DNA of 64,000 nucleotides from Pelagomonas calceolata (taxonomy: Eukaryota > Sar > Pelagophyceae > Pelagomonadales > Pelagomonadaceae). This document shows positions 15,826 to 63,542 of the stretch, piece after piece. The DNA lies in NCBI GenBank assembly GCA_918797485.1, contig CAKKNE010000001.1, positions 4,402,001-4,466,000 of the forward strand, read 5' to 3'. The translations under genes and the position numbers were made by a program. The stretch's first letter is position 1, and every line of letters starts with the position of its first letter. The notes beneath the pieces are model-generated. The model had not been told where the DNA came from. It worked only from the letters and a program-made list of their open reading frames with translations, and did no database searches.

Positions 15826-17440
15826 CTACTTCTTCTTGGCCGCGGATTTCGTCGTCTTGCCCTCCTTCTCGGACTTGTCGACCGACTTGATGACGCCGAC
15901 CGCGACCGTCTGGCGCATGTCGCGCACGGCGAAGCGCCCGAGCGGCGGGTACTCGGCGAACGACTCGACGCACAGCGGCTTCGTCGGCTCGAGCGTGACC
16001 ATGCACGCGTCGCCCGTCTTCACGAACTTCGGGTTCTCCTCGAGCACCTTGCCTGATCGCCTGTCCATCTTCTGGTCGATGTTCTTGAACTTGCACGCGA
16101 CGTGGGCCGTGTGGCAATCGAGGACGGGCGAGTAGCCCGACGAGATCTGGCCGGGGTGGTTCATGACGATGACCTGGGCGAAGAAGGTGCTCGCGCCCTT
16201 GGGCGGGTCCTTCTTGGAGTCGCCGCACACGTTGCCGCGGCGGATGTCCTTGACCGACACGTTCTTCACGTTGAAGCCGACGTTGTCGCCCGGCACGGCC
16301 TCGGGGAGCGACTCGTGGTGCATCTCGACGGACTTGACCTCAGTCGTGATCTGGACGGGCGCGAAGGTGCAGACCATGCCCGGCTTGATGATGCCCGTCT
16401 CGACGCGGCCGACCGGCACCGTGCCGATACCGCCGATCTTGTAGACGTCCTGGAGCGGGAGGCGCAGCGGCTTGTCCGAGGGGCGCTTCGGCGGGTTGGC
16501 GTTGTCGAGCGCCTCGAGGAGGTAGGGGCCCTTGTACCACGGCATGTTCGTCGACTTGTCGATCATGTTGTCGCCCATCCAGCCCGAGATCGGCACGAAC
16601 GGGATCTTCATCGGCTTGTAGCCGACCTTCTTCAGGTAGGTCGACACCTCGGCCTTGATCTCCTTGTAGCGGCCCTCGCCGTACTTGACCGACACGTCGT
16701 CCATCTTGTTGCACGCCACGATCATCTGCTTCACGCCGAGCGTGAACGCCAGCAGCGCGTGCTCGCGCGTCTGGCCGTCCTTGGAGATACCGGCCTCGAA
16801 GCCGCCCACCGACGAGTCAATCACCAGAATGGCGATATCGGCCTGGGACGTGCCCGTGATCATGTTCTTGATGAAGTCGCGGTGGCCCGGCGCGTCGATG
16901 ACCGTGAAGTAGAACTTCGGCGACTCGAACTTCCAGAGCGCAATGTCAATCGTGATACCGCGCTCGCGCTCGGCCTTGAGGTTGTCAAGCACCCACGCGT
17001 ACTTGAACGAGGCCTTGCCGAGCTCGGCCGCCTCCTTCTCGAACTTCTCGATCGTCCGCTTGTCGATGCCGCCGCATTTGTAGATCAAGTGACCCGTCGT
17101 CGTCGACTTGCCGGCGTCGACGTGGCCGATCACCACGAGGTTGATGTGCGTCTTCTCCTTCACCTGCGATGCGGGCGCGCCGGTCGTACAACGCTCTTTC
17201 CTCACCATAGGGCTTCACGTCGCGCGTGTGTGTGTCCGGGCCTGCTGACAGTGCCCGCCGCGGCGACCGACGGTCGTTCGCTGCGGCTGGCCGCTCGTCG
17301 GTCCGTGCTAGTGGCCAAGCAAAAATCTCGCATCGCCGAAGCTCCGCACGTCGCCGTCGCAGCGCGCGGGCCCGCAACGCGCGCCTCGCTGGACGCGGAT
17401 CGGCTGGAGGATTCTCAAACGTAACGCGGGTGCGCACCAT
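15826..17440 (-). CDS. EEF1A: translation elongation factor 1-alpha, copy 1
   Basis: EF-1alpha, 446 residues when spliced. The main exon is the complement of 15826-17163 and begins [26 protein letters not shown]. GTPase motifs [14 protein letters not shown] and NKMD and the full domains II and III are present, ending KSAAKKK. The most economical 5' end is a one-codon exon: ATG at 17438-17440, followed by GTGCGC as donor, with acceptor CGCATCGCAG ending at 17164 (274-base intron). The second copy has the same arrangement. A start at 17206-17208 without splicing would give an unusual 14-residue extension and is less likely. It delivers aminoacyl-tRNA to the ribosome. The protein is identical to copy 2. 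Confidence 0.95.
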
Positions 17441-18032: not shown

Positions 18033-19644
18033 TCACTTCTTCTTAGCGGCGGACTTGGTCGTCTTGCCCTCCTTCTCGGACTTGTCGACCGACTTGATCA
18101 CGCCGACCGCGACCGTCTGGCGCATGTCGCGCACGGCGAAGCGTCCGAGCGGCGGGTACTCGGCGAACGACTCGACGCACAGCGGCTTCGTCGGCTCGAG
18201 CGTCACCATGCACGCGTCGCCCGTCTTCACGAACTTAGGGTTCTCCTCGAGCACCTTGCCCGAGCGGCGGTCCATCTTCTGGTCGATGTTCTTGAACTTG
18301 CACGCGACGTGGGCCGTGTGGCAATCGAGGACGGGCGAGTAGCCCGACGAGATCTGGCCGGGGTGGTTCATGACGATGACCTGGGCGAAGAAGGTGCTCG
18401 CGCCCTTGGGCGGGTCCTTCTTGGAGTCGCCGCACACGTTGCCGCGGCGGATGTCCTTGACCGACACGTTCTTCACGTTGAAGCCGACGTTGTCGCCCGG
18501 CACGGCCTCGGGGAGCGACTCGTGGTGCATCTCGACGGACTTGACCTCAGTCGTGATCTGGACGGGCGCGAAGGTGCAGACCATGCCCGGCTTGATGATG
18601 CCCGTCTCGACGCGGCCGACCGGCACCGTGCCGATACCGCCGATCTTGTAGACGTCCTGGAGCGGGAGGCGCAGCGGCTTGTCCGAGGGGCGCTTCGGCG
18701 GGTTGGCGTTGTCGAGCGCCTCGAGGAGGTAGGGGCCCTTGTACCACGGCATGTTCGTCGACTTGTCGATCATGTTGTCGCCCATCCAGCCCGAGATCGG
18801 CACGAACGGGATCTTCATCGGCTTGTAGCCGACCTTCTTCAGGTAGGTCGACACCTCGGCCTTGATCTCCTTGTAGCGGCCCTCGCCGTACTTGACCGAC
18901 ACGTCGTCCATCTTGTTGCACGCCACGATCATCTGCTTCACGCCGAGCGTGAACGCCAGCAGCGCGTGCTCGCGCGTCTGGCCGTCCTTGGAGATACCGG
19001 CCTCGAAGCCGCCCACCGACGAGTCAATCACCAGAATGGCGATATCGGCCTGGGACGTGCCCGTGATCATGTTCTTGATGAAGTCGCGGTGGCCCGGCGC
19101 GTCGATGACCGTGAAGTAGAACTTCGGCGACTCGAACTTCCAGAGCGCAATGTCAATCGTGATACCGCGCTCGCGCTCGGCCTTGAGGTTGTCAAGCACC
19201 CACGCGTACTTGAACGAGGCCTTGCCGAGCTCGGCCGCCTCCTTCTCGAACTTCTCGATCGTCCGCTTGTCGATGCCGCCGCATTTGTAGATCAAGTGAC
19301 CCGTCGTCGTCGACTTGCCGGCGTCGACGTGGCCGATCACCACGAGGTTGATGTGCGTCTTCTCCTTCACCTGCGATGCGGGGCGCGCTCGGTCTCGTAT
19401 AAATGCACCTCATGCGGGGTTTCAGGTGTTTGCGTGTTTGAGGGGTTGCTGCCGATGGCCGGTGCAATCGCTGCGGTTGCCACAACGTCCGCGCGGCCGC
19501 AAAAGGCGCCATCGCCGGCATGGGGGATATTTGGTGATTGCGCGCCACAGGCTTGCCGCGGTGCGTGATTGCTCGATCAGCGGCCGCGCGCAATATATAT
19601 TGGGAGCAGGTGTGCAAGCAGGATAGGTTGGAGAGACGCACCAT
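18033..19644 (-). CDS. EEF1A: translation elongation factor 1-alpha, copy 2
   Basis: Same protein as copy 1. The main exon is the complement of 18033-19370, opening with GTG AAG GAG and therefore lacking its own ATG. An ATG followed by GTGCGT lies at 19642-19644, so a one-codon first exon and a 271-base intron (19371-19641, acceptor CGCATCGCAG) give the normal MVKEKTHIN start. By eye, DNA of the two copies is identical from about 16063/18270 to the intron acceptor (over 1.1 kb), while the last 230 coding bases carry several silent differences and the flanks and introns differ. That pattern suggests recent gene conversion of an older tandem duplication. Confidence 0.94.
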
Positions 19645-48917: not shown

Positions 48918-51031
48918 ATGCAAAAAATCCGCCGCGACCGCCGACCGCCAAAACGCGCGCAGGTCTTCTTCGACATGTCCATCGGCGGCCAGCCGGCGGG
49001 GCGCATCGAGATGACGCTCCGCGCGGACGTCGTCCCGAAGACGGCCGAGAACTTCCGCTGCCTCTGCACGGGCGAGAAGGGTGCCGCGGCCGCGTCCCTC
49101 TTTTCTCAAACAACTCCGTGGCGCAATGGATAGCGTATCAGACTTCGAATCTGGGGGTTGCGGGTTCGAGTCCCGTCGGAGTTGTTTCGCCGATCGCGCG
49201 GCGGCCGTTCAGTATCCGTGGCCGAGTTGGTCTTTCATCTATGATGAACCATGAAGGCGTTGGATTTAAGCCCCAATCTCTTCGGAGGCGTGGGTTCGAA
49301 CCCCACCGGATGCACACATGAACGCCGTCGACGCGACACCGGACGGACTGGAAAATCTGAAGGTCGCGGGTTCGACTCCCGCATCGGTCTCTCCGCGGAT
49401 TGGACTTTGTGCAAGATAGTGTGGCCGAGTGGTTAAGGCGGTAGACTTGAAATCTACTCCCGTAAGGGTCGCAGGATCGATTCTCACAAAATCGATGCGC
49501 GTTCGAACCCTGTCACTATCGCGCACGTTGATGATGTGGCCGAGTGGTCTAAGCTCCTGTGAGCGACCAGAGGCGCTGGTTTTAGGCACCAGTCTTCGGG
49601 CGTGGGTTCGAACCCCACCATCATCACGACAAGTCCTTTCCGCACATTTGTATCCGTGGCCGAGTTGGTCTAAGGCGTTGGATTTAAGCCCCAATCTCTT
49701 CGGAGGCGTGGGTTCGAACCCCACCGGATGCATTTGGACCGATTGGCGCAACGGTAGCGCGTCAGATTCCAGTCCTGAAGGTTACGCGTTCGAATCGCGT
49801 ATCGGTCATAGAGCGCGTGTCGACGGTACGTTCCTACGCAGGCACGGGCCGCTCGGGCAAGCCGCTCTACTTCAAGGGCTCCACCTTCCACCGCGTCATC
49901 ACGGACTTCATGTGCCAGGGCGGCGACTTCACGCGCGGCAACGGTGCCGCGGCCGCGTCCTATGCATATTTGGGGGTGTAGCTCAGTGGCAGAGCGTCCG
50001 CTTTGCATGCGGAAAGCCCAGGGTTCAAACCCCTGCTCCTCCACACACACACAACTCCGTGGCGCAATGGATAGCGTATCAGACTTCGAATCTGGGGGTT
50101 GCGGGTTCGAGTCCCGTCGGAGTTGTTGCTGCTCGACGGCGCGGAGGTGGAGCCTCGCACGCCGAGACCGGGCCGGTCACGCGCGCACGCGCAGGCACGG
50201 GCGGCGAGTCCATCTACGGCGAGAAGTTCGCCGACGAGAACTTCCAGCTCCGCCACACGGGCCCCGGCGTGCTCTCGATGGCCAACGCCGGCCCGGGCAC
50301 GAACGGCTCCCAGTACCGCGGCCGCGTCCTTTCATTCAACTCCGTGGCGCAATGGATAGCGTATCAGACTTCGAATCTGGGGGTTGCGGGTTCGAGTCCC
50401 GTCGGAGTTGTTGCTCGATAGCGTGGTGCGTCTCGACGCACCACGATCTGGACGGACTGGAAATCTGAAGGTCGCGGGTTCGACTCCCGCATCGGTCTTG
50501 CTTGCGGATTGGACTACGATAGTGTGGCCGAGTGGTTAAGGCGGTAGACTTGAAATCTACTCCCGCAAGGGTCGCAGGATCGATTCTCACAAAATCGATG
50601 CGCGTTCGAACCCTGTCACTATCGCGCACAAAGTCCTTTCTGCACATTTGTATCCGTGGCCGAGTTGGTCTTTCGTCTATGACGAGCCACGAAGGCGTTG
50701 GATTTAAGCCCCAATCTCTCCGGAGGCGTGGGTTCGAACCCCACCGGATGCATTTGATACATTTGACCGATGGGCGCCACGGTGGCGCGTCAGACTCCAG
50801 TCCGATGTCAGATTCCAGTCCTCCGAGAGAGCATACAAGGGCAATGTCGACGGTACAATCACACGCAGGTTCTTCCTCTGCACGGTCAAGACCGACTGGC
50901 TCGACGGCAAGCACGTCGTCTTCGGCTCCGTGACCAAGGGCATGGACGTCGTCAAGAAGATCGAGGCCGTCGGCTCGGGGTCCGGCGCGACGGCCAAGCC
51001 GGTCGTCATCACCGACTGCGGCCAGCTCTAA
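48918..51031 (+). CDS. cyclophilin (peptidyl-prolyl isomerase) with tRNA-bearing introns
   Basis: Exons 48918-49080, 49842-49943, 50195-50312, 50869-51031 (546 bases, 181 residues). Joined, they read as a cyclophilin A-type domain: [35 protein letters not shown], then [22 protein letters not shown] (catalytic Arg in [12 protein letters not shown]), [53 protein letters not shown], ending VVITDCGQL. All active-site residues are present. The three introns (761, 251 and 556 bases) start GTGCCGCGGCCGCGTCC, the same, and GTACCGCGGCCGCGTCC, and end in CGCAG; each carries tRNA genes on the coding strand. Confidence 0.93.
49112..49184 (+). tRNA. tRNA-Arg(TCG), copy 1, in cyclophilin intron 1
   Basis: Complete cloverleaf of 73 bases. 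Acceptor AACTCCG pairs with CGGAGTT, anticodon loop CTTCGAA gives TCG, T-loop TTCGAGT. No intron. Identical to the copies at 50053 and 50338. Confidence 0.93.
49212..49314 (+). tRNA. tRNA-Leu(TAA) with 20-base D-loop insertion, copy 1
   Basis: Acceptor GTATCCG/CGGATGC, anticodon TAA in loop TTTAAGC, long variable arm, T-loop TTCGAAC. Compared with the copy at 49650, 20 bases (49234-49253) are inserted in the D-loop. With flanks they fold as TGGT/ACCA (4 bp) with 3-nt bulges CTT and TGA and an inner TCAT/ATGA hairpin. Cutting between bulge bases 2 and 3 restores the intronless sequence exactly. Confidence 0.88.
49344..49390 (+). tRNA. tRNA-Trp-like 3' half, copy 1 (no adjoining 5' half)
   Basis: From the anticodon stem 3' strand (TCTGA) through variable loop, T-arm (GCGGG/CCCGC) and acceptor strand ATCGGTC, ending 49389. 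Preceded by CGGACTGG (49344-49351), complementary to the anticodon region of the tRNA-Trp 5' pieces. A 5' half directly upstream is absent. Confidence 0.6.
49415..49521 (+). tRNA. tRNA-Ser(TGA) with 26-base T-loop insertion, copy 1
   Basis: Acceptor GATAGTG/CACTATC, anticodon loop CTTGAAA, variable arm CCC-GTAA-GGG. Between T-stem base 53 and T-loop base 54, 26 bases are inserted. They form CGCA/TGCG (4 bp) with 3-nt bulges GGA and CGT and an inner 6-bp hairpin TCGATT/AATCGA: an exact bulge-helix-bulge. Removal gives a normal T-arm GCAGG-TTCGAAC-CCTGT. Confidence 0.9.
49530..49626 (+). tRNA. tRNA-Leu(TAG) with 19-20-base D-arm insertion
   Basis: Acceptor GATGATG/CATCATC, anticodon loop TTTAGGC (TAG), T-loop TTCGAAC. 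The D-arm holds an insertion that folds as TGGTC/GACCA (5 bp) with 3-nt bulges TAA and GAG and inner hairpin GCTC-CTGT-GAGC. Single copy; no intronless relative in the window, so the exact ends are uncertain by one base. Confidence 0.85.
49650..49732 (+). tRNA. tRNA-Leu(TAA) without insertion
   Basis: 83 bases, same body as the copies at 49212 and 50650 but with the D-loop joined directly (GGTCTAAGGCG). Serves as the reference for the insertion boundaries. Confidence 0.93.
49737..49808 (+). tRNA. tRNA-Trp(CCA), contiguous
   Basis: 72 bases. Acceptor GACCGAT/ATCGGTC, D-stem GCGC/GCGC, anticodon CCA in loop TTCCAGT, T-stem ACGCG/CGCGT. Anticodon stem closes with an A-C mismatch at 31-39. No intron. 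Confidence 0.85.
49972..50043 (+). tRNA. tRNA-Ala(TGC), in cyclophilin intron 2
   Basis: 72 bases, acceptor GGGGGTG paired with CTCCTCC (one T-T mismatch), anticodon stem CCGC with TGC, T-loop TTCAAAC. No intron. Confidence 0.9.
50053..50125 (+). tRNA. tRNA-Arg(TCG), copy 2, in cyclophilin intron 2
   Basis: Identical over 73 bases to the copies at 49112 and 50338. Confidence 0.93.
50338..50410 (+). tRNA. tRNA-Arg(TCG), copy 3, in cyclophilin intron 3
   Basis: Identical over 73 bases to copies 1 and 2; begins 25 bases after the intron donor, much as copy 1 does in intron 1. Confidence 0.93.
50453..50498 (+). tRNA. tRNA-Trp-like 3' half, copy 2
   Basis: Starts CGGACTGG (50453-50460), then AAA and TCTGA, variable loop, T-arm GCGGG/CCCGC and acceptor ATCGGTC ending 50497. 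Its acceptor, anticodon-stem and flanking CGGACTGG are perfectly complementary to the 5' half at 50765-50804. The discriminator base would be T, unlike the A of the contiguous tRNA-Trp. A perfect 8-bp hairpin (GTGGTGCG/CGCACCAC) lies just upstream at 50423-50444. Confidence 0.6.
50518..50624 (+). tRNA. tRNA-Ser(TGA) with 26-base T-loop insertion, copy 2
   Basis: Same as the gene at 49415 including the identical 26-base insertion; one difference in the variable arm loop (CAA for TAA). Confidence 0.9.
50650..50752 (+). tRNA. tRNA-Leu(TAA) with D-loop insertion, copy 2
   Basis: Same layout as 49212. The insertion differs at several bases, but the changes keep the fold: the inner helix TCAT/ATGA becomes TCGT/ACGA, and TGGT/ACCA becomes TGGT/GCCA (G-U pair). 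Predicted splicing again gives GGTCTAAGGCG. Confidence 0.88.
50765..50804 (+). tRNA. tRNA-Trp 5' half (no adjoining 3' half)
   Basis: Acceptor strand GACCGAT, intact D-arm (GCGC/GCGC), anticodon-stem 5' strand TCAGA and CTCCAG to position 37, then TCCG. Downstream sequence repeats an anticodon-arm-like piece (50808-50822) instead of a 3' half. Together with 50463-50497 it would make a canonical tRNA-Trp with loop CTCCAGA. Confidence 0.6.
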
Positions 51032-56880: not shown

Positions 56881-57233
56881 TATGGCTGCTGGCGAAATAT
56901 GAAATATAGATCCGACAGCAACTGGTGTTGCAATAGGTGCAGCAGGCGTCGCGACAGCCTATGCCTCGTCGATGCCTGTGATGATGCAGCCTTTCGAGCA
57001 TTTTGTTTCAGGGCGCTCGCGCACCGGTATGGAGAGTAGGAGTCCCTCCTCGAGACGCGTGAGAGCCATCCTCGCGGTCGCGCGTGGCGCCCCGCCGGGA
57101 CCATGCCCTCTCCACAGGCGGCAGTGAAGTTACTCGCGGGCACTCAACAGCGACGGAACAGCAAGTCTGGCAATTCCGACATTTGTATATACCACTACAC
57201 GACCATCTCAAAATATACAGCAAGTAGAACATA
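56881..57233. promoter_or_regulatory. divergent region, TPI / lipid fusion gene
   Basis: 353 bases between divergent starts; no gene. AT-rich just before 57234. Confidence 0.35.
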
Positions 57234-60200
57234 ATGGGGCGTGGTGGCCAGAGGCCCCCGAGCCCTGCCACCCTGGCTGCTATAGTGCCGCCGCTGCGCG
57301 ACGACGAGCTACAGCACTACACGGTCTTAGAAGGAGCGGCCTATGACCTACGAAAGCTCGGCGACCGCCACCCCGGCGGCGCTTTGGCACTAACCTTCGC
57401 GGGCGGCCGGGACCTGAGTCGGACGTGGGCGGGCCTCCACGGCTTCGCGGACCCGCAGAAAACTAGAGCGTGGTTGACGCATATGAGGGTCAGAGACAAG
57501 GAGCTCGAGCGACGCATCGTGCGACGAGCAAAACCAGACGCGTACAGCGAGGGCGATAATGTATCAGCACATCTCGCGCGCATCGAGCGGGAAGCATCGA
57601 GCTTCAATGAATTATCGCAGAAAGGCCGCGTGCCTCCATCAGAACCTCCGTCCCATTTAATAGAGCGCGACTTGGGCGGCGAACTCGGGACGAGGGTGCG
57701 GTGGTTGTTCCGCAGGAAAGCTCATGCATCAAAAACATCATTGAATGCAGCCACGAAGGCGCCCACGGCGTACTGGCCCTGGTTAATTGTAGTAGTGACG
57801 GCCTTCCTCGCGTCCTATGTTTCATGGTGTCGAGGGAGCTACGTCGGGTTGATAGCACTCGGCCCGCTCGGCCAGTTACTAGCCTTCGCGGTGATGCACG
57901 ACGCGTCGCACTACGCCATCTCGACCAAGCGCTGGGTCAACGTCGCGCTGGCCTACGCGGGCGTCGCCTACACGTCGCCGCACGAGTGGACGCTGCAGCA
58001 CGTCCTCGGCCACCACGTCGCGCCGAACGTGGAAGGCGAGGACCCGGACGTCGTCCACGCGCGGCGCTACATGAAAGCATTAACTGGCGTCGGGAAAGCT
58101 TTTGATGCGCTGCTCGTGTGGCTCGTGGCTCTACCGGCAGCCATAACTTTACTGGCACCGGTACGCGTGCGCAAGAACGACGGCGTCTACCCCGCCTCGA
58201 CGGTGCACGAGGGCGAACGAAGTATGATAAGGCACGTGGCGCACTTCGCCGGACGGTTAATACATGCGCTGGCATTCTTCCTCTGGCCCTTCTACGTCTA
58301 CTCACCACTCACAGCGGTAACGTGGGTCTTGATTCCGGCCTGCTCTGGTTCTTTAGTTTTTATGGCCGTGACGCAGGTGGCGCATTTACTGGAGGCCACG
58401 ATCGAGGGGCCCTCGAATGCGCCTCGATCCTGGGCCTCGCAGCAAATTGCGAATGCGTGCGATTTCGCGCCGGACTCGCCGTTAGTTGCGAGATTGACGG
58501 GCGGCCTCAATAGACAAGTGGAGCACCACCTCTTTCCGACCGTGCACCACTCGCACCTACCGGAGCTATCATCTATAGTACAAGATGTCACAAAAAGAAG
58601 AGGCCTGGACCACCACGTCCTGCCGTCCGCCACAAAAGCTCTGGGGGACCACCTCGCGTTCTTGCGGAGCCTCGAGGAGGCGCCTCCATTACCTGTCGTG
58701 TACGACGGTACTGTGGTGCACGCGCGCGCGCCGATTGCCAACGAACCTAGACATCGCTTCTCCGCGTCGCATGCCATGTGGTTATTGCCCTTGGATGATC
58801 CCGAGGCCATGCGCACCCTTGAGAAAGGATGTATCCGGTGGCGCGCCGCGGACCATCTGAGGTCGAGGCCCGGGGAGAGGAAGACACCAAAAGACGTCGC
58901 GGACGCCGTCCGATCTCTCTGTCGGGAACGAGGAGGCTCTTTAAAAAGAGTGGACTCGCCCGATAGTGTGATCAAGCACTTTCAAGGTAGTAGACGTACG
59001 GGCCTCGGTTCGGTCTCACTATTGACGATGCCTCGGACCTTCGGCTACGTCTTCAACCCCATCTCCGTCTACTACGTGAGGGATGCGAATGACAAGCCGG
59101 CCTATGTTGTTTTTGAAGTGTCGAATACGCCTTGGCTGGAAGAAACGCTCTACGTACATCCCGTTAATACAAAAGATACATATGAAGATATGAAGAAGAT
59201 GCACGTGTCGCCCTTCCAGCCCATGGGCCAAATGTACAAGTGGACGGCGCCGTTTCCTTCTGAGAATGTGTCTCTAAGGGTCGACGTGTCGAGAAATGAT
59301 AAGCCGTATTTCGTGGCCACGTTCGACGGTGCCGCGTCGACGGCGCCTTCCACAACATTAGGGAGAGTGCGTACGGCTCTCAAACTGACCCCACATACCG
59401 CCGTCTTGTTAATCCACGCGCACGCCGCCCTCTTACTAGCAAAAGGTGCAAAATTCTACCCTCATCCAAGCGGCGTGAAGACGGCCATGTCGCGATGTAT
59501 CGAGGTGATCTATCATTCGCGGTATCGCTTGTTGGCCTACTACTTGTTGAGACGGTTGCATGCGCCTCAGTACCTCATCGCGACGGCGGCCGTCAGCGTC
59601 TTACAGCGCGCCGCGTCTGTATTGTCAAGGAAAAGTTCATCGAAGAACGTGTCATCAAAGGATACCAAAGATGTACCTTTCGAGATGGTCGAGTCCCCGA
59701 AAAATAACAGTACGCCGATGCTGGCTACTGAGGAGAATTTAGCCGGTAATGCTACTGGAAAGCGCGTCGCCATCATCGGTAGTGGCATTGCGGGCAACGG
59801 TGCTGCTTACTTACTAAAAAAGCGCGGCGTCGACGTCACGGTCTTCGAGGCCTCATCAATACCGGGCGGCCACGCGCTTACGGTCGAGGTCGAGGGCCGT
59901 GCTGTCGACGTGGGCTTCCAGGTCTTCAACCTCGCGAACTACCCGAGACTGTCAAAACTGTTCGATGAACTAGGCGTGCAGCACGTCCAGAGCGACATGA
60001 GCCTGTCGTGTGAGGGCACGCAGTGCTGGTCCTCGAAGAACCCGTTAGTTGGTTGTTTGTTGTCACCAAGCAAACTCTGGCAGCGGTTGTCTTTACTCAT
60101 GGAGATCCTCAAGTTCGAGAAAAAGTGCAAACAGCTCTTGCAGAGTGAAGAAGATCCGTCTTTGTCCATACAAGAATGGTTAAACGAAAATAACTTCTCG

Positions 60201-63200
60201 GAAAGGCTAGCTCGAGAATACTGCGAGCCCATGGTCGGGGCCATCTGGTCGCGTACGCAGGGCGATGTGTTAGATGAGTTTCCGATCTTGGGCGTGGCCC
60301 AGTTTCTGGCGAACCACTACATGCTCGACCGGTCGCGGCCGGCGTGGCGAACGCCGCGGTTAAGATCGCAGGACTACGTTACGAAGTTAGTCGAGAAGGT
60401 CGGGCGGGACGCGTATCGACTATCATCGAGGGTGCGCGCTGTACATAAGGATCGCTCCAATAAGTGGTTAATAGAGTCCGATTCACCGACGGCCCTGGCC
60501 TTCGACGCTGTTATACTCGCGTGCGACGCGCCGACGGCTTCTACCATACTAGGGGACCAGGCGCCGGACCTACTCAAGCAGCTCAAGGTAACGCAAAATG
60601 ATGTCTGTGTCCACCGCGACGCGTCGCTCATGCCTTCTGACAGAAACGCGTGGGCGGCCTGGAACTGCCGGCCGAACGGCGTGTTGACCTACTGGGCGAA
60701 TGTGCTACAGCCCGGTGTCGATGATCAGGACCTGTTTATTACCTTGAATGGATCTACGCCAGCCCCCTTATGGCGGCGGACGTTACAACATCCCGTGCTC
60801 GATGCGGCGTCGCAGAAATGGAGGGAGTCATTACCATCACTCCAGGGGAACGAGGGTATTTATTTTGCCGGCGCCTGGTGCGGCTTCGGCTTCCACGAGG
60901 ACGGCCTCAAATCGGCCTACGATGCTGTGGATGCTTTGTGTGGTACGACGACCCCTATCGCTCGATCACCATTTGTAGCCAGTTCATCCTTGACGAAGAC
61001 GGCTTTAAGATGTGTCTGTCGCGGCGCTCGAGCGCTAGCAGCAAGGACTGCTGATAAAACGAGACCGCGGCCGGAGATCGTCCTGACTTTACCGGAAGGT
61101 CTCGACTTAATAGCGGCCGACGCCGTCTCTAGTAAAGAGAGAGTTGAGGTAAGAATCCTAGACGGACGAGCGGCCTGGCGGTTATTAGCTGATCCGTCGA
61201 TGGGGCTGGCCGAGGGGTACATGGAGGGGAGCCTCGACCTGAAGCCGTCTATTCGAGCTGTGTTACATGCCGCCCTGAAATGTAAAAATAAGGATGCGGG
61301 CGATAGTCCCCAGAACGTGGCGTCGCGATCACTCCTCACAGTCGGCAAGCGGTTCACCGACGTCATCCAACACGCGTTCAACGCCAATACTAAGTCAGGT
61401 AGCTTGAAGAACATCGCGGCGCACTATGATTTGTCCAATGCCTTTTATGAGCTGTGGTTGGATGAAACCCTCACCTACTCCTCAGCTTTGTATGATGACC
61501 ACGAGCCCTACTTACGAAGGGAAGGTTTACTGGTAGATGACGGTCGGAGAGGTACTGTGGACGAAGACGCATCAGACGACGTGTTAGCGGCAGCGCAACG
61601 TAGGAAACTAGATTCATTACTGGACAAGGCCGGCGTGCGCGATGGTGATAGAATACTAGAGATCGGGTGCGGCTGGGGTAGTCTAGCGTTGCGGTGTACG
61701 GAACGCTTCCCGAACTGTGAGTACGTGGCCATCACTATTTCCCGGGAACAGTTGAACGAAGCCTCGCAACGGTTGGAAGGTAAGAGCAATGCCAGGGTCG
61801 TCTTCTGCGACTATCGCGACGCGCGAGACAAGCTGGGCTTGTTCGATCGCGTGCTGTCCTGTGAGATGATCGAGGCCGTCGGCCACGCCTTTTTACCGTC
61901 CTATTTCTCGGCGATCCACGCCTGTCTGAAGGGCGGTGGGTCGGCCTCCCTACAGATCATCACGGTGCCCGACGAACGGTACGCTTCATATATCAAGGGT
62001 AGCGATTTCATCCGGAAGCACGTCTTTCCTGGTTCTTCATTGGTATGTCTGGAAGCCGTAAAAAAAGCCCTGCCGAAGCTAGGCTCTTTAGCTTTAAGGT
62101 TGGACGACGCGGCTACTTTAAGCATGGGCGTATCTTATGCTCGTACCTTACGGGCGTGGCGCGTCCGTTTCGACGCTGTCGAAGACCAGGTATCTAAGCT
62201 CGGTTTTGATGACGTCTTCGTCAGGAAGTGGAGGTATTATCTGGACTACTGCGAGGCGGGCTTCGCGTGTGGTCATATCGACGTGAAGCAGATACGACTC
62301 GAGAAGACGGACGAAAGCCTTGCGAGAGAAGCGACGGAGGGCGCCCATGGTTCGAAACCCATCTCGGTGAAGGATATGACTATCAAGGCCGTGAAGGGCG
62401 TGGCCACTACGGCCTTTGAGCGAGGCTTACTGCCGGATTTCGTGACGCGGTATGGGATAAGACAGCTCTCGGCGCAGCAACTGAGGCACTGCGACGACGC
62501 CGGTCGCGCAGCCAACAACGGCGAGGCGGGCTTGGCTGGTAGTCAAGAGAAGCTCCGGGAGACCATCCAGGCTTTGTTGGAAGCGCCGGTAGCAGTATGT
62601 ACGTCCGAGGCGAACGAGCAGCACTACGAAGTCGACGCGCGCTTCTACGGGCTGTGTCTGGGGCCCCATAGGAAGTACTCTGCTTGTTTATATGAAGGGG
62701 CGGAGCCGAAGTGGCCCGGGAACAAACTGCAAAAAGACGCGGCTCGGTTACTGCCAAAGGCGGAAAAGGATTCATTAGATCAAGTCGCGGCTCGCGGCGA
62801 CATCACGCAGGCCACGAAAGCTATCTTAGATTGCGGCTGCGGCTGGGGGTCGGCCTCGCTGTACTTGGCGGATAGATTCCGGAACGCCCAGGTGGTAGGT
62901 GTCTCGAATTCTCATTCCCAGAGAAGGTACATCATGGGCCAGGCTCAAGAACGAGGATTGACGAACCTGCAGATTGTGACACTGGATTTGTCGAAGGAGC
63001 CTCTCACAAAAGCCTTGGACGCGTTGCAGAGTCGACTGCCGGGCCAGTATTTCGAGCGCGGCGTCTCGATAGAGATGTTCGAGCACATGAAGAATTATAA
63101 GGCATTATTTGAGAAGATCACGGCGGTACTACAGGACCAGGGCCGCTTCTTCGTGCACGTGTTCTGCCACCGGCAGTACGCGTACCACTTCGTGGCCAAG

Positions 63201-63542
63201 TCCGACGCGGACTGGATGGCCAAGTACTTCTTCGCGGGCGGTACCATGCCTTCGGCCGATTTATTTGTTCATTTTGCGGCGCGGAAAGATGCGCCCGTCG
63301 CGCTCGTGGACCACTGGCGGAACAGCGGCGTGCATTACGCGTTGACGGCGGAAGGCTGGCTCCAGAACATGGACGCCAACGCGGCGGAAGTCAGAGAGAT
63401 ATTAAAGGAGGCCTACCCTGAAAATGAGACGGAGCTCTGGTTCCACCGCTGGCGCGCCTTTTACCTCGCGTGCGTCGAACTCTTCGGCTACGACGGCGGC
63501 CAGGAGTGGTGCATCGGGCACTACCTCTTCGAGAAGCGGTGA
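57234..63542 (+). CDS. 2102-residue fusion: cytochrome b5, desaturase, DUF1365, flavin amine oxidase, CFA-synthase-like and CNMT-like methyltransferases
   Basis: One intronless frame. Cytochrome b5 about 25-95 (haem site HPGGALALT). Front-end fatty-acid desaturase about 175-470 with all histidine boxes (HDASH at 222, HVLGHH near 255, QVEHH at 428) and hydrophobic spans. DUF1365 about 485-760 (VYDGTVVHARAP to SLLTMPRTFGYVFNPISVYY). FAD amine oxidase about 840-1240 (KRVAIIGSGIAGNGAAYLL, IPGGHALTVEV, DVGFQVFNL). Cyclopropane-fatty-acyl-phospholipid-synthase-like methyltransferase about 1270-1700 (HYDLSNAFYELWL, LEIGCGWGSL). Coclaurine-N-methyltransferase-like domain about 1785-2102 (DCGCGWGSASLYL, SIEMFEHMKN, ending GHYLFEKR). 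DUF1365, the oxidase and the CFA-type enzyme are separate neighbouring genes in many bacteria. The product is probably a methylated, cyclised or otherwise modified unsaturated fatty acid; which one is unknown. Confidence 0.93.
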   Translation: MGRGGQRPPSPATLAAIVPPLRDDELQHYTVLEGAAYDLRKLGDRHPGGALALTFAGGRDLSRTWAGLHGFADPQKTRAWLTHMRVRDKELERRIVRRAKPDAYSEGDNVSAHLARIEREASSFNELSQKGRVPPSEPPSHLIERDLGGELGTRVRWLFRRKAHASKTSLNAATKAPTAYWPWLIVVVTAFLASYVSWCRGSYVGLIALGPLGQLLAFAVMHDASHYAISTKRWVNVALAYAGVAYTSPHEWTLQHVLGHHVAPNVEGEDPDVVHARRYMKALTGVGKAFDALLVWLVALPAAITLLAPVRVRKNDGVYPASTVHEGERSMIRHVAHFAGRLIHALAFFLWPFYVYSPLTAVTWVLIPACSGSLVFMAVTQVAHLLEATIEGPSNAPRSWASQQIANACDFAPDSPLVARLTGGLNRQVEHHLFPTVHHSHLPELSSIVQDVTKRRGLDHHVLPSATKALGDHLAFLRSLEEAPPLPVVYDGTVVHARAPIANEPRHRFSASHAMWLLPLDDPEAMRTLEKGCIRWRAADHLRSRPGERKTPKDVADAVRSLCRERGGSLKRVDSPDSVIKHFQGSRRTGLGSVSLLTMPRTFGYVFNPISVYYVRDANDKPAYVVFEVSNTPWLEETLYVHPVNTKDTYEDMKKMHVSPFQPMGQMYKWTAPFPSENVSLRVDVSRNDKPYFVATFDGAASTAPSTTLGRVRTALKLTPHTAVLLIHAHAALLLAKGAKFYPHPSGVKTAMSRCIEVIYHSRYRLLAYYLLRRLHAPQYLIATAAVSVLQRAASVLSRKSSSKNVSSKDTKDVPFEMVESPKNNSTPMLATEENLAGNATGKRVAIIGSGIAGNGAAYLLKKRGVDVTVFEASSIPGGHALTVEVEGRAVDVGFQVFNLANYPRLSKLFDELGVQHVQSDMSLSCEGTQCWSSKNPLVGCLLSPSKLWQRLSLLMEILKFEKKCKQLLQSEEDPSLSIQEWLNENNFSERLAREYCEPMVGAIWSRTQGDVLDEFPILGVAQFLANHYMLDRSRPAWRTPRLRSQDYVTKLVEKVGRDAYRLSSRVRAVHKDRSNKWLIESDSPTALAFDAVILACDAPTASTILGDQAPDLLKQLKVTQNDVCVHRDASLMPSDRNAWAAWNCRPNGVLTYWANVLQPGVDDQDLFITLNGSTPAPLWRRTLQHPVLDAASQKWRESLPSLQGNEGIYFAGAWCGFGFHEDGLKSAYDAVDALCGTTTPIARSPFVASSSLTKTALRCVCRGARALAARTADKTRPRPEIVLTLPEGLDLIAADAVSSKERVEVRILDGRAAWRLLADPSMGLAEGYMEGSLDLKPSIRAVLHAALKCKNKDAGDSPQNVASRSLLTVGKRFTDVIQHAFNANTKSGSLKNIAAHYDLSNAFYELWLDETLTYSSALYDDHEPYLRREGLLVDDGRRGTVDEDASDDVLAAAQRRKLDSLLDKAGVRDGDRILEIGCGWGSLALRCTERFPNCEYVAITISREQLNEASQRLEGKSNARVVFCDYRDARDKLGLFDRVLSCEMIEAVGHAFLPSYFSAIHACLKGGGSASLQIITVPDERYASYIKGSDFIRKHVFPGSSLVCLEAVKKALPKLGSLALRLDDAATLSMGVSYARTLRAWRVRFDAVEDQVSKLGFDDVFVRKWRYYLDYCEAGFACGHIDVKQIRLEKTDESLAREATEGAHGSKPISVKDMTIKAVKGVATTAFERGLLPDFVTRYGIRQLSAQQLRHCDDAGRAANNGEAGLAGSQEKLRETIQALLEAPVAVCTSEANEQHYEVDARFYGLCLGPHRKYSACLYEGAEPKWPGNKLQKDAARLLPKAEKDSLDQVAARGDITQATKAILDCGCGWGSASLYLADRFRNAQVVGVSNSHSQRRYIMGQAQERGLTNLQIVTLDLSKEPLTKALDALQSRLPGQYFERGVSIEMFEHMKNYKALFEKITAVLQDQGRFFVHVFCHRQYAYHFVAKSDADWMAKYFFAGGTMPSADLFVHFAARKDAPVALVDHWRNSGVHYALTAEGWLQNMDANAAEVREILKEAYPENETELWFHRWRAFYLACVELFGYDGGQEWCIGHYLFEKR

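Follow-up and report, generated by a model that had tools for sequence, protein, structure and literature searches.

Two tRNA-Leu(UAA) genes in a 64,000-nucleotide (nt) stretch of the Pelagomonas calceolata genome (the window; C1:4402001-4466000) carry 20 extra bases in the D-loop, and these inserts, like those present in tRNA-Leu(UAG) and tRNA-Ser(UGA), are very probably true transfer RNA (tRNA) introns at ectopic positions, with a bulge-helix-bulge (BHB) motif that would be cut by the Sen endonuclease. An earlier note on this DNA had read the D-loop insert as an intron spliced by the bulge rule, and this reading, with removal by a BHB-cleaving tRNA endonuclease, is supported because four Leu(UAA) copies possess and six lack the insert, because inserts of unrelated sequence in Leu(UAG) and Ser(UGA) obey the same rule, because shuffled inserts seldom do so, and because homologues of Sen and RtcB are encoded in the genome. 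Transcription, cutting, ligation and the function of the products are steps that we infer.

Interrupted tRNA genes and the bulge-helix-bulge rule

The 20 additional bases reported in the earlier note for the Leu(UAA) genes at 49212 and 50650, and their absence from the gene at 49650, were confirmed on the sequence, as was the fold TGGT[CTT]..ACCA[TGA] of the first copy, which is present at 49228-49254 (Table 1). Splicing by the bulge rule was said to recreate the intronless sequence; this is exact for the copy at 49212, while the copy at 50650 differs from that at 49650 by one base of the variable (V) arm (TTCGGA/TCCGGA), a base that is also variable among intronless copies (L056). The earlier note was silent on the interruption of the neighbouring Leu(UAG) gene and of both Ser(UGA) genes.

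The genome searched comprised 32,445,274 bases in 8 contigs; the accessible text of PMC9481584 describes strain RCC100 as having 32.4 Mb in six nuclear contigs, organelle genomes of 90 kb (plastid) and 39 kb (mitochondrion), and a GC content of 63%. Copy counts of tRNA families are lower bounds and the tRNA counts are not a complete census, genome-wide Rfam scoring having covered 63 of 492 candidates. A DNA search with copy 1 as the query identified ten copies of Leu(UAA), six without an insert and four with one (two in the window, the others at C2:1776982 and C1:5680352; insert lengths 20, 20, 21 and 24 nt). A D-loop insert was present in all six copies of Leu(UAG) found genome-wide and a T-arm insert (53/54) in all six copies of Ser(UGA), partial pattern matches also numbering six for each. 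The ectopic positions in these 16 genes are 20b/21, 21/22 and 53/54. The introns of the three families are 19-29 nt long and divergent in sequence, and the exons are nearly identical: Leu(UAG) inserts, for instance, include the variants [TAT]TAACC..GGTTA-GACC[CTA] and [TAA]ACCC..GGGT-GACC[AGA], and the junction survives substitutions in the bulge, for example AGA to CTA. By inspection, no sequence is common to the inserts of the three tRNAs, the only common feature being the BHB geometry.

A script listed every strict hBHBh' motif, defined by a central helix of 4 bp, bulges of 3 nt and an inner helix of 3 or more, and placed the cuts behind the second base of both bulges; its input was the 16 genes (4 Leu(UAA), 6 Leu(UAG) and 6 Ser(UGA)) plus a tRNA-Lys insert described below. 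One strict BHB restored the expected mature tRNA in 16 of 16 interrupted genes. The spliced Leu(UAA) genes equal the intronless sequence except at one V-arm T/C site in two of the four copies, the same variant occurring in an intronless copy; Leu(UAG) yields a single mature sequence except for two acceptor-stem bases in L070, and Ser(UGA) a single one except for a V-arm T/C variant. In a shuffle test that kept the composition of the insert, demanded an inner helix of at least 4 and ran 200000 trials per insert, 14 to 512 shuffled inserts (7e-5 to 2.6e-3) followed the rule for 14 inserts of the three families, as did 15 of the 15 real inserts given; the set excluded the Ser(UGA) insert of L055, and the second Ser(UGA) insert of the window is identical to the first. 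For the two Leu(UAA) inserts of the window, 450 and 434 of the 200000 shuffles restored the tRNA through a strict BHB, and because these are so few, the fit of the two inserts to the motif is not chance.

The enzymes expected of such a pathway were sought by profile. The catalytic Sen domain (PF01974) matched at C5:536022 and C2:3400105, the Sen54-type domain (PF12928) at C3:2957188 and weakly at C5:536319, and RtcB (PF01139) over 426 of 426 profile positions at C5:639988. Sen15 (PF09631), the subunit absent from a Sen complex of the Cyanidioschyzon merolae kind, had no match in the genome, with a profile that also matched 0 of 14 control genomes. In the mechanism favoured here, the pre-tRNA would fold into a BHB in which exon bases of the D-loop or T-stem pair with the intron end to form the 4-bp central helix. 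A Sen-type tRNA splicing endonuclease would cut both 3-nt bulges behind their second base, and the exons would be joined by a ligase, possibly the encoded RtcB.

Whether a tRNA would depend on splicing appears to differ between families. A class II pattern of TGGCCGAG type gave 21 nuclear matches, 1 plastid match and 0 control matches, with a gap range that excludes intronless Leu(UAG) and Ser(UGA); a second exact pattern scan (49 matches over all contigs; 7 control matches) returned none with the 60-nt span of an intronless Leu(UAG) or the 63-nt span of an intronless Ser(UGA). Since every copy found carries the intron and no intronless match was obtained, removal of the Leu(UAG) and Ser(UGA) introns is probably required; I34 tRNAs might read the codons of these two tRNAs, which limits any claim of essentiality. 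The Leu(UAA) intron, judged from its gene copies, is optional at the level of the gene family.

By default ARAGORN named none of the interrupted genes, and with introns allowed it assigned inconsistent names (Arg, Thr, Ala, Gln, Gly) and read one Leu(UAG) (L056) with a 19-nt intron; at the Rfam gathering score the window Leu(UAG) and Ser(UGA) genes were listed and the two interrupted Leu(UAA) genes were not. In the accessible text of PMC8450103, eukaryotic tRNA genes are called limited to one intron and the search for noncanonical introns is described for archaeal candidates; standard annotation may therefore misread such genes. A search for relatives in viral and genome contig collections, from which near records may be left out, gave no match.

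A further interrupted gene was observed at L073 3274-3369 (minus strand) plus its upstream flank (C2:5800001-5806000), where a tRNA-Lys(UUU) has a V-loop insert at 43/44 that forms a strict BHB, with 10 of 200000 shuffles as good (5e-5). A possible second intron in its acceptor stem, with a 4-bp TGCC/GGCA helix, was noted by eye. This gene is free-standing and has T-runs.

Covariation, predicted folding and alternative explanations

Two substitutions described earlier between the Leu(UAA) copies of the window, the paired inner-helix change from TCAT/ATGA to TCGT/ACGA and the change from ACCA to GCCA with a wobble pair kept, are both present. Compensatory change had been offered as an argument for selection; the window pair alone amounts to one two-sided change, but the further genome copies make the case more persuasive. 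Aligning the tRNA-Leu loci of the genome, as had been proposed, revealed two-sided changes in both Leu(UAA) and Leu(UAG), although the formal test for Leu(UAA), with 4 sequences, is weak. In the Leu(UAA) alignment 36 of 36 cells are paired, one of the five inner-helix pairs occurs as three pair types (GC 2, AU 1, UA 1) and one central pair is UG/UA. The inner helix of Leu(UAG) has two-sided changes in three of four pairs over six copies, the pairs being taken from hand-set segments because the MAFFT alignment had this helix out of register. For Ser(UGA) the corresponding change affects one of six pairs (CG to UA), with one UA/UG and 50 of 50 cells paired. Taken together, the paired changes and the test of the BHB rule support selection on the structure, each set being weak alone.

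Several results weigh against reading the inserts as introns. The covariation sets are small (4-6 sequences each): the score was matched by 30 of 500 shuffles for Leu(UAA) and by 101 of 500 for Ser(UGA), the Leu(UAA) structure slid by -3 columns scores 0.204 as against 0.241, and the Leu(UAG) changes are without a shuffle control. In 11 of the 16 stretches, or 12 of 17 once Lys is counted, there are also strict motifs from which splicing would not recover the tRNA. RNAfold values for the central helix are at least 0.80 in 6/6 Leu(UAG) and 2/4 Leu(UAA) copies, but 0.08-0.23 in both window Leu(UAA) copies, close to 0 in five of six Ser(UGA) copies and 0.40-0.45 in the sixth, and those for the inner helix are low in the Leu(UAA) of L053 (0.19-0.20) and partly in the Leu(UAG) of L054; this disfavouring of the BHB by predicted folding is a real weakness, chiefly for Ser(UGA). 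The pattern scans tolerate no mismatch, so that genes with altered boxes escape, and three unread 65-nt scan matches (C1:4376917, C1:6108402 and C2:5907284) are possibly further class II tRNAs. Lastly, interrupted genes with intronless siblings, as in Leu(UAA), form a pattern usually read as pseudogenes, at least in the accessible text of PMC4090602.

If the insert-bearing genes were pseudogenes, hairpin insertions would have inactivated these copies and duplication would have kept the arrays, and both the six uninterrupted Leu(UAA) copies and the degenerate tRNAs of the arrays (e.g. a broken Trp near 50769) would fit such a history. As the main explanation it is rejected because of the interruption of all Leu(UAG) and Ser(UGA) copies found, neither having an intact copy by exact pattern; moreover, the exons are near-identical despite diverging inserts, each of which retains a strict BHB from which the tRNA can be restored, and we consider inactivation quite improbable. 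More improbable still is the retention of the inserts in the mature tRNA as an enlarged D-loop or T-arm hairpin, whether tolerated or functional. Hairpins are indeed predicted to form in most copies by RNAfold, and class II tRNAs, with their long V arms, tolerate extra stems, but a hairpin by itself needs neither 3-nt bulges nor a central helix between exon and intron, and the intronless Leu(UAA) genes indicate that the insert is dispensable. For Ser(UGA), an insert between stem base 53 and loop base 54 would disturb the contacts between T-loop and D-loop.

The recurrence of hairpins in several tRNAs could also point to a small element, mobile or introner-like, whose targets happen to be tRNA arms, in a genome where a 210-bp peak of intron length has been ascribed to Introner Elements (accessible text of PMC9481584). 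This we regard as the least probable explanation of all: the three insert families, by inspection, share geometry and not sequence, and such an element would be compatible with splicing, the matter being one of origin more than of function. Excision of the inserts as BHB introns remains the reading that we favour.

Host introns, orphan tRNA halves and other features

The tRNA genes described for the window lie in three spliceosomal GT-AG introns of a cyclophilin gene (Table 1). Its exons, with ends at 49080, 49943 and 50312, give when joined one continuous frame for a protein matching positions 1-158 of 159 of PF00160. Joined frames are open across tRNA-bearing introns in seven further loci (L052, L053, L054, L056, L057, L065 and L070), evidence that is weak alone in G+C-rich DNA. 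A domain crosses the exon junction in three of the four proteins run against Pfam, namely the cyclophilin, an SBF transporter (L056), whose junction near residue 155 falls within a match spanning 119-294, and a cold-shock-type protein (L057), whose junction behind residue 154 falls within an OB_RNB match of 138-160, the L052 protein being without a match. The intron borders of L055, L058-L064, L066, L067 and L071 were set by eye, and the intron of the large array in L055 has no clear GT donor. Many host introns have recurrent GTACCGCGGCCGCGTCC-like 5' ends and ...CGCAG ends. The nuclear tRNAs tallied number 69 (those listed by Rfam for the window, for L052-L067 and for L069-L073, together with the four interrupted Leu(UAA); three organelle-like tRNAs of L068 are excluded). 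By the evidence above, 66 of them lie inside such introns, and 64 of these 66 are not followed by four consecutive T in the next 40 nt. The free-standing tRNAs Thr (L069), Ile (L072) and Lys (L073) have T-runs of 9, 9 and 7, respectively.

The missing T-runs, the nesting of the genes in introns and the splitting of the B-box region by the Ser(UGA) intron suggest release from transcripts of RNA polymerase II (Pol II). Tentatively, the tRNA arrays could be made from the spliceosomal introns of Pol II pre-mRNA, with the tRNAs released either from the pre-mRNA itself or from the intron once excised, so that the internal boxes for RNA polymerase III and a terminator would be unneeded and the D- and T-arms would be freed for BHB introns. 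A single precursor would then be a substrate for the spliceosome as well as for the tRNA endonuclease, and tRNA genes may be spread by introner-like introns.

Near-identical introns bearing tRNA-Arg(UCG) were observed in L064 and L067 amid differing flanks, which suggests that intron and tRNA can spread together. In introns with a single tRNA-Arg(CCU) (L061, L062, L063 and L071), the ends close to the splice sites are complementary to each other (e.g. GGACC ... GGTCC) and could draw these sites together.

An orphan Trp-like tRNA 3' half precedes Ser(UGA) in six copies, two in the window and one each in L052, L054, L055 and L056. Three of its five T-stem pairs change on both sides among five distinct sequences (0 of 500 shuffles reached the covariation score, and 11 of 500 had as many two-sided pairs), and its leader GGACTGG is complementary to CCAGTCC of the tRNA-Trp anticodon arm. 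Inspection found no 5' half near these elements; the Trp-type 5' sequence downstream is some 300-400 nt away and separated from them by other tRNAs. A permuted or split tRNA-Trp built from the orphan halves was rejected, as the 3' bulge varies in length (AAA, AAAA, longer) and no strict BHB was seen.

Elsewhere, three organelle-like tRNAs lie in a nuclear contig at L068 3634-3894 (C5, about 33 kb from the contig end), perhaps an insertion of organelle DNA. On the minus strand of the window, two near-identical open reading frames about 0.8 kb apart (15826-17214 and 18033-19409), which we take to encode EF-1alpha, may reflect either recent tandem duplication or gene conversion. A single frame of 2104 codons on the plus strand (57228-63542) is presumably a fusion of a desaturase, an amine oxidase-like part and two cyclopropane-synthase-like parts.

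Table 1. Positions of tRNA genes, their introns and host introns in the window
Feature	Positions	Strand	Basis or remark
tRNA-Leu(UAA) copy 1, D-loop intron	49212..49314	+	sequence and BHB rule
Intron of Leu(UAA) copy 1, 20 nt, between 20b and 21	49234..49253	+	strict BHB; splicing gives the intronless sequence
BHB of Leu(UAA) copy 1	central helix 49228-49231/49248-49251; bulges 49232-49234, 49252-49254; inner helix 49235-49239/49243-49247		
tRNA-Leu(UAA) copy 2, D-loop intron	50650..50752	+	sequence and BHB rule
Intron of Leu(UAA) copy 2, 20 nt	50672..50691	+	strict BHB; two-sided change relative to copy 1
tRNA-Leu(UAA) without intron	49650..49732	+	comparison of copies; Rfam list
tRNA-Leu(UAG), D-loop intron	49530..49626	+	BHB rule
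Intron of Leu(UAG), 19 nt, between 21 and 22	49552..49570	+	strict BHB GGTC[TAA]GCTC..GAGC-GACC[AGA]; present in minimum-free-energy fold, central pairs 0.92
tRNA-Ser(UGA) copy 1, T-arm intron	49415..49521	+	BHB rule
Intron of Ser(UGA) copy 1, 26 nt, 53/54	49476..49501	+	strict BHB CGCA[GGA]TCGATT..AATCGA-TGCG[CGT]; RNAfold prefers other pairing, central pairs ~0
tRNA-Ser(UGA) copy 2, identical T-arm intron at 50579-50604	50518..50624	+	BHB rule
Orphan Trp-like tRNA 3' half	49345..49389; second copy 50454-50497	+	
Cyclophilin intron with six tRNA genes and orphan tRNA 3' half	49081..49841	+	GT..AG; exons joined in frame
Next cyclophilin intron, with tRNA-Ala and tRNA-Arg	49944..50194	+	joined frame, PF00160
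Third cyclophilin intron, with tRNA-Arg, orphan 3' half, Ser(UGA), Leu(UAA) and degenerate Trp	50313..50868	+	joined frame, PF00160
tRNA-Trp(CCA), intact	49737..49808	+	
tRNA-Arg(UCG)	49112..49184; more copies 50053-50125, 50338-50410	+	
tRNA-Ala(UGC)	49972..50043	+	

Relation to known systems and significance

Ectopic or permuted tRNA genes are described, in the accessible parts of the literature, from archaea, nucleomorphs, Cyanidioschyzon merolae and prasinophytes (PMC4090602, PMC3978253, PMC9602550, PMC4033280). A close likeness is to C. merolae, a eukaryote whose nuclear tRNA introns also lie in D- and T-arms, those of Ile(UAU) at 12/13, 37/38 and 53/54 (accessible text of PMC9602550), the last being the Ser(UGA) position in P. 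calceolata. P. calceolata differs in being a stramenopile, in its D-loop positions 20b/21 and 21/22 and in the coexistence of intronless copies of the same tRNA. Furthermore, C. merolae tRNA genes have an upstream TATA-like box and a downstream T-stretch, and the disrupted ones are seemingly freed from internal promoters, TFC1 and TFC3 not being identified there, as far as the accessible text of PMC3978253 goes; in contrast, the P. calceolata genes lie within spliceosomal introns and mostly lack T-runs.

D- and T-arm introns also occur in the nucleomorphs of cryptophytes and chlorarachniophytes, such as that of Guillardia theta, where excision was confirmed through sequenced products of reverse transcription polymerase chain reaction (PMC4090602) and where many introns have no defined BHB (PMC3978253), according to the accessible text of both papers. 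Unlike these, the P. calceolata introns show a strict BHB in 16 of 16 cases. Crenarchaeal noncanonical introns share the BHB motif and comparable positions, such as 20/21 and 53/54 (accessible text of PMC4090602), and differ in their archaeal host and archaeal endonuclease types. Many of the host introns resemble pelagophyte introner-type introns in their recurrent ends and differ in carrying tRNA genes, their identity as introners being putative; PMC9481584 does not use the word "tRNA" in its main text. A literature search found no stramenopile report of ectopic tRNA introns, most subscription papers being beyond its reach and absence therefore unproven.

In the accessible parts of reviews, disruption of eukaryotic tRNA genes at positions other than 37/38 is described from a red alga, nucleomorphs and prasinophytes (permuted), and P. 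calceolata adds a stramenopile with 16 clear cases. The occurrence of the same tRNA with and without an intron, together with two tRNAs for which splicing seems necessary, opens several matters to direct testing in an open-ocean alga: the specificity of the endonuclease, the gain and loss of introns, and how promoter type relates to the disruption of tRNA genes. Additionally, arrays nested in the introns of protein genes, mostly without terminators, raise the question of which polymerase transcribes them.

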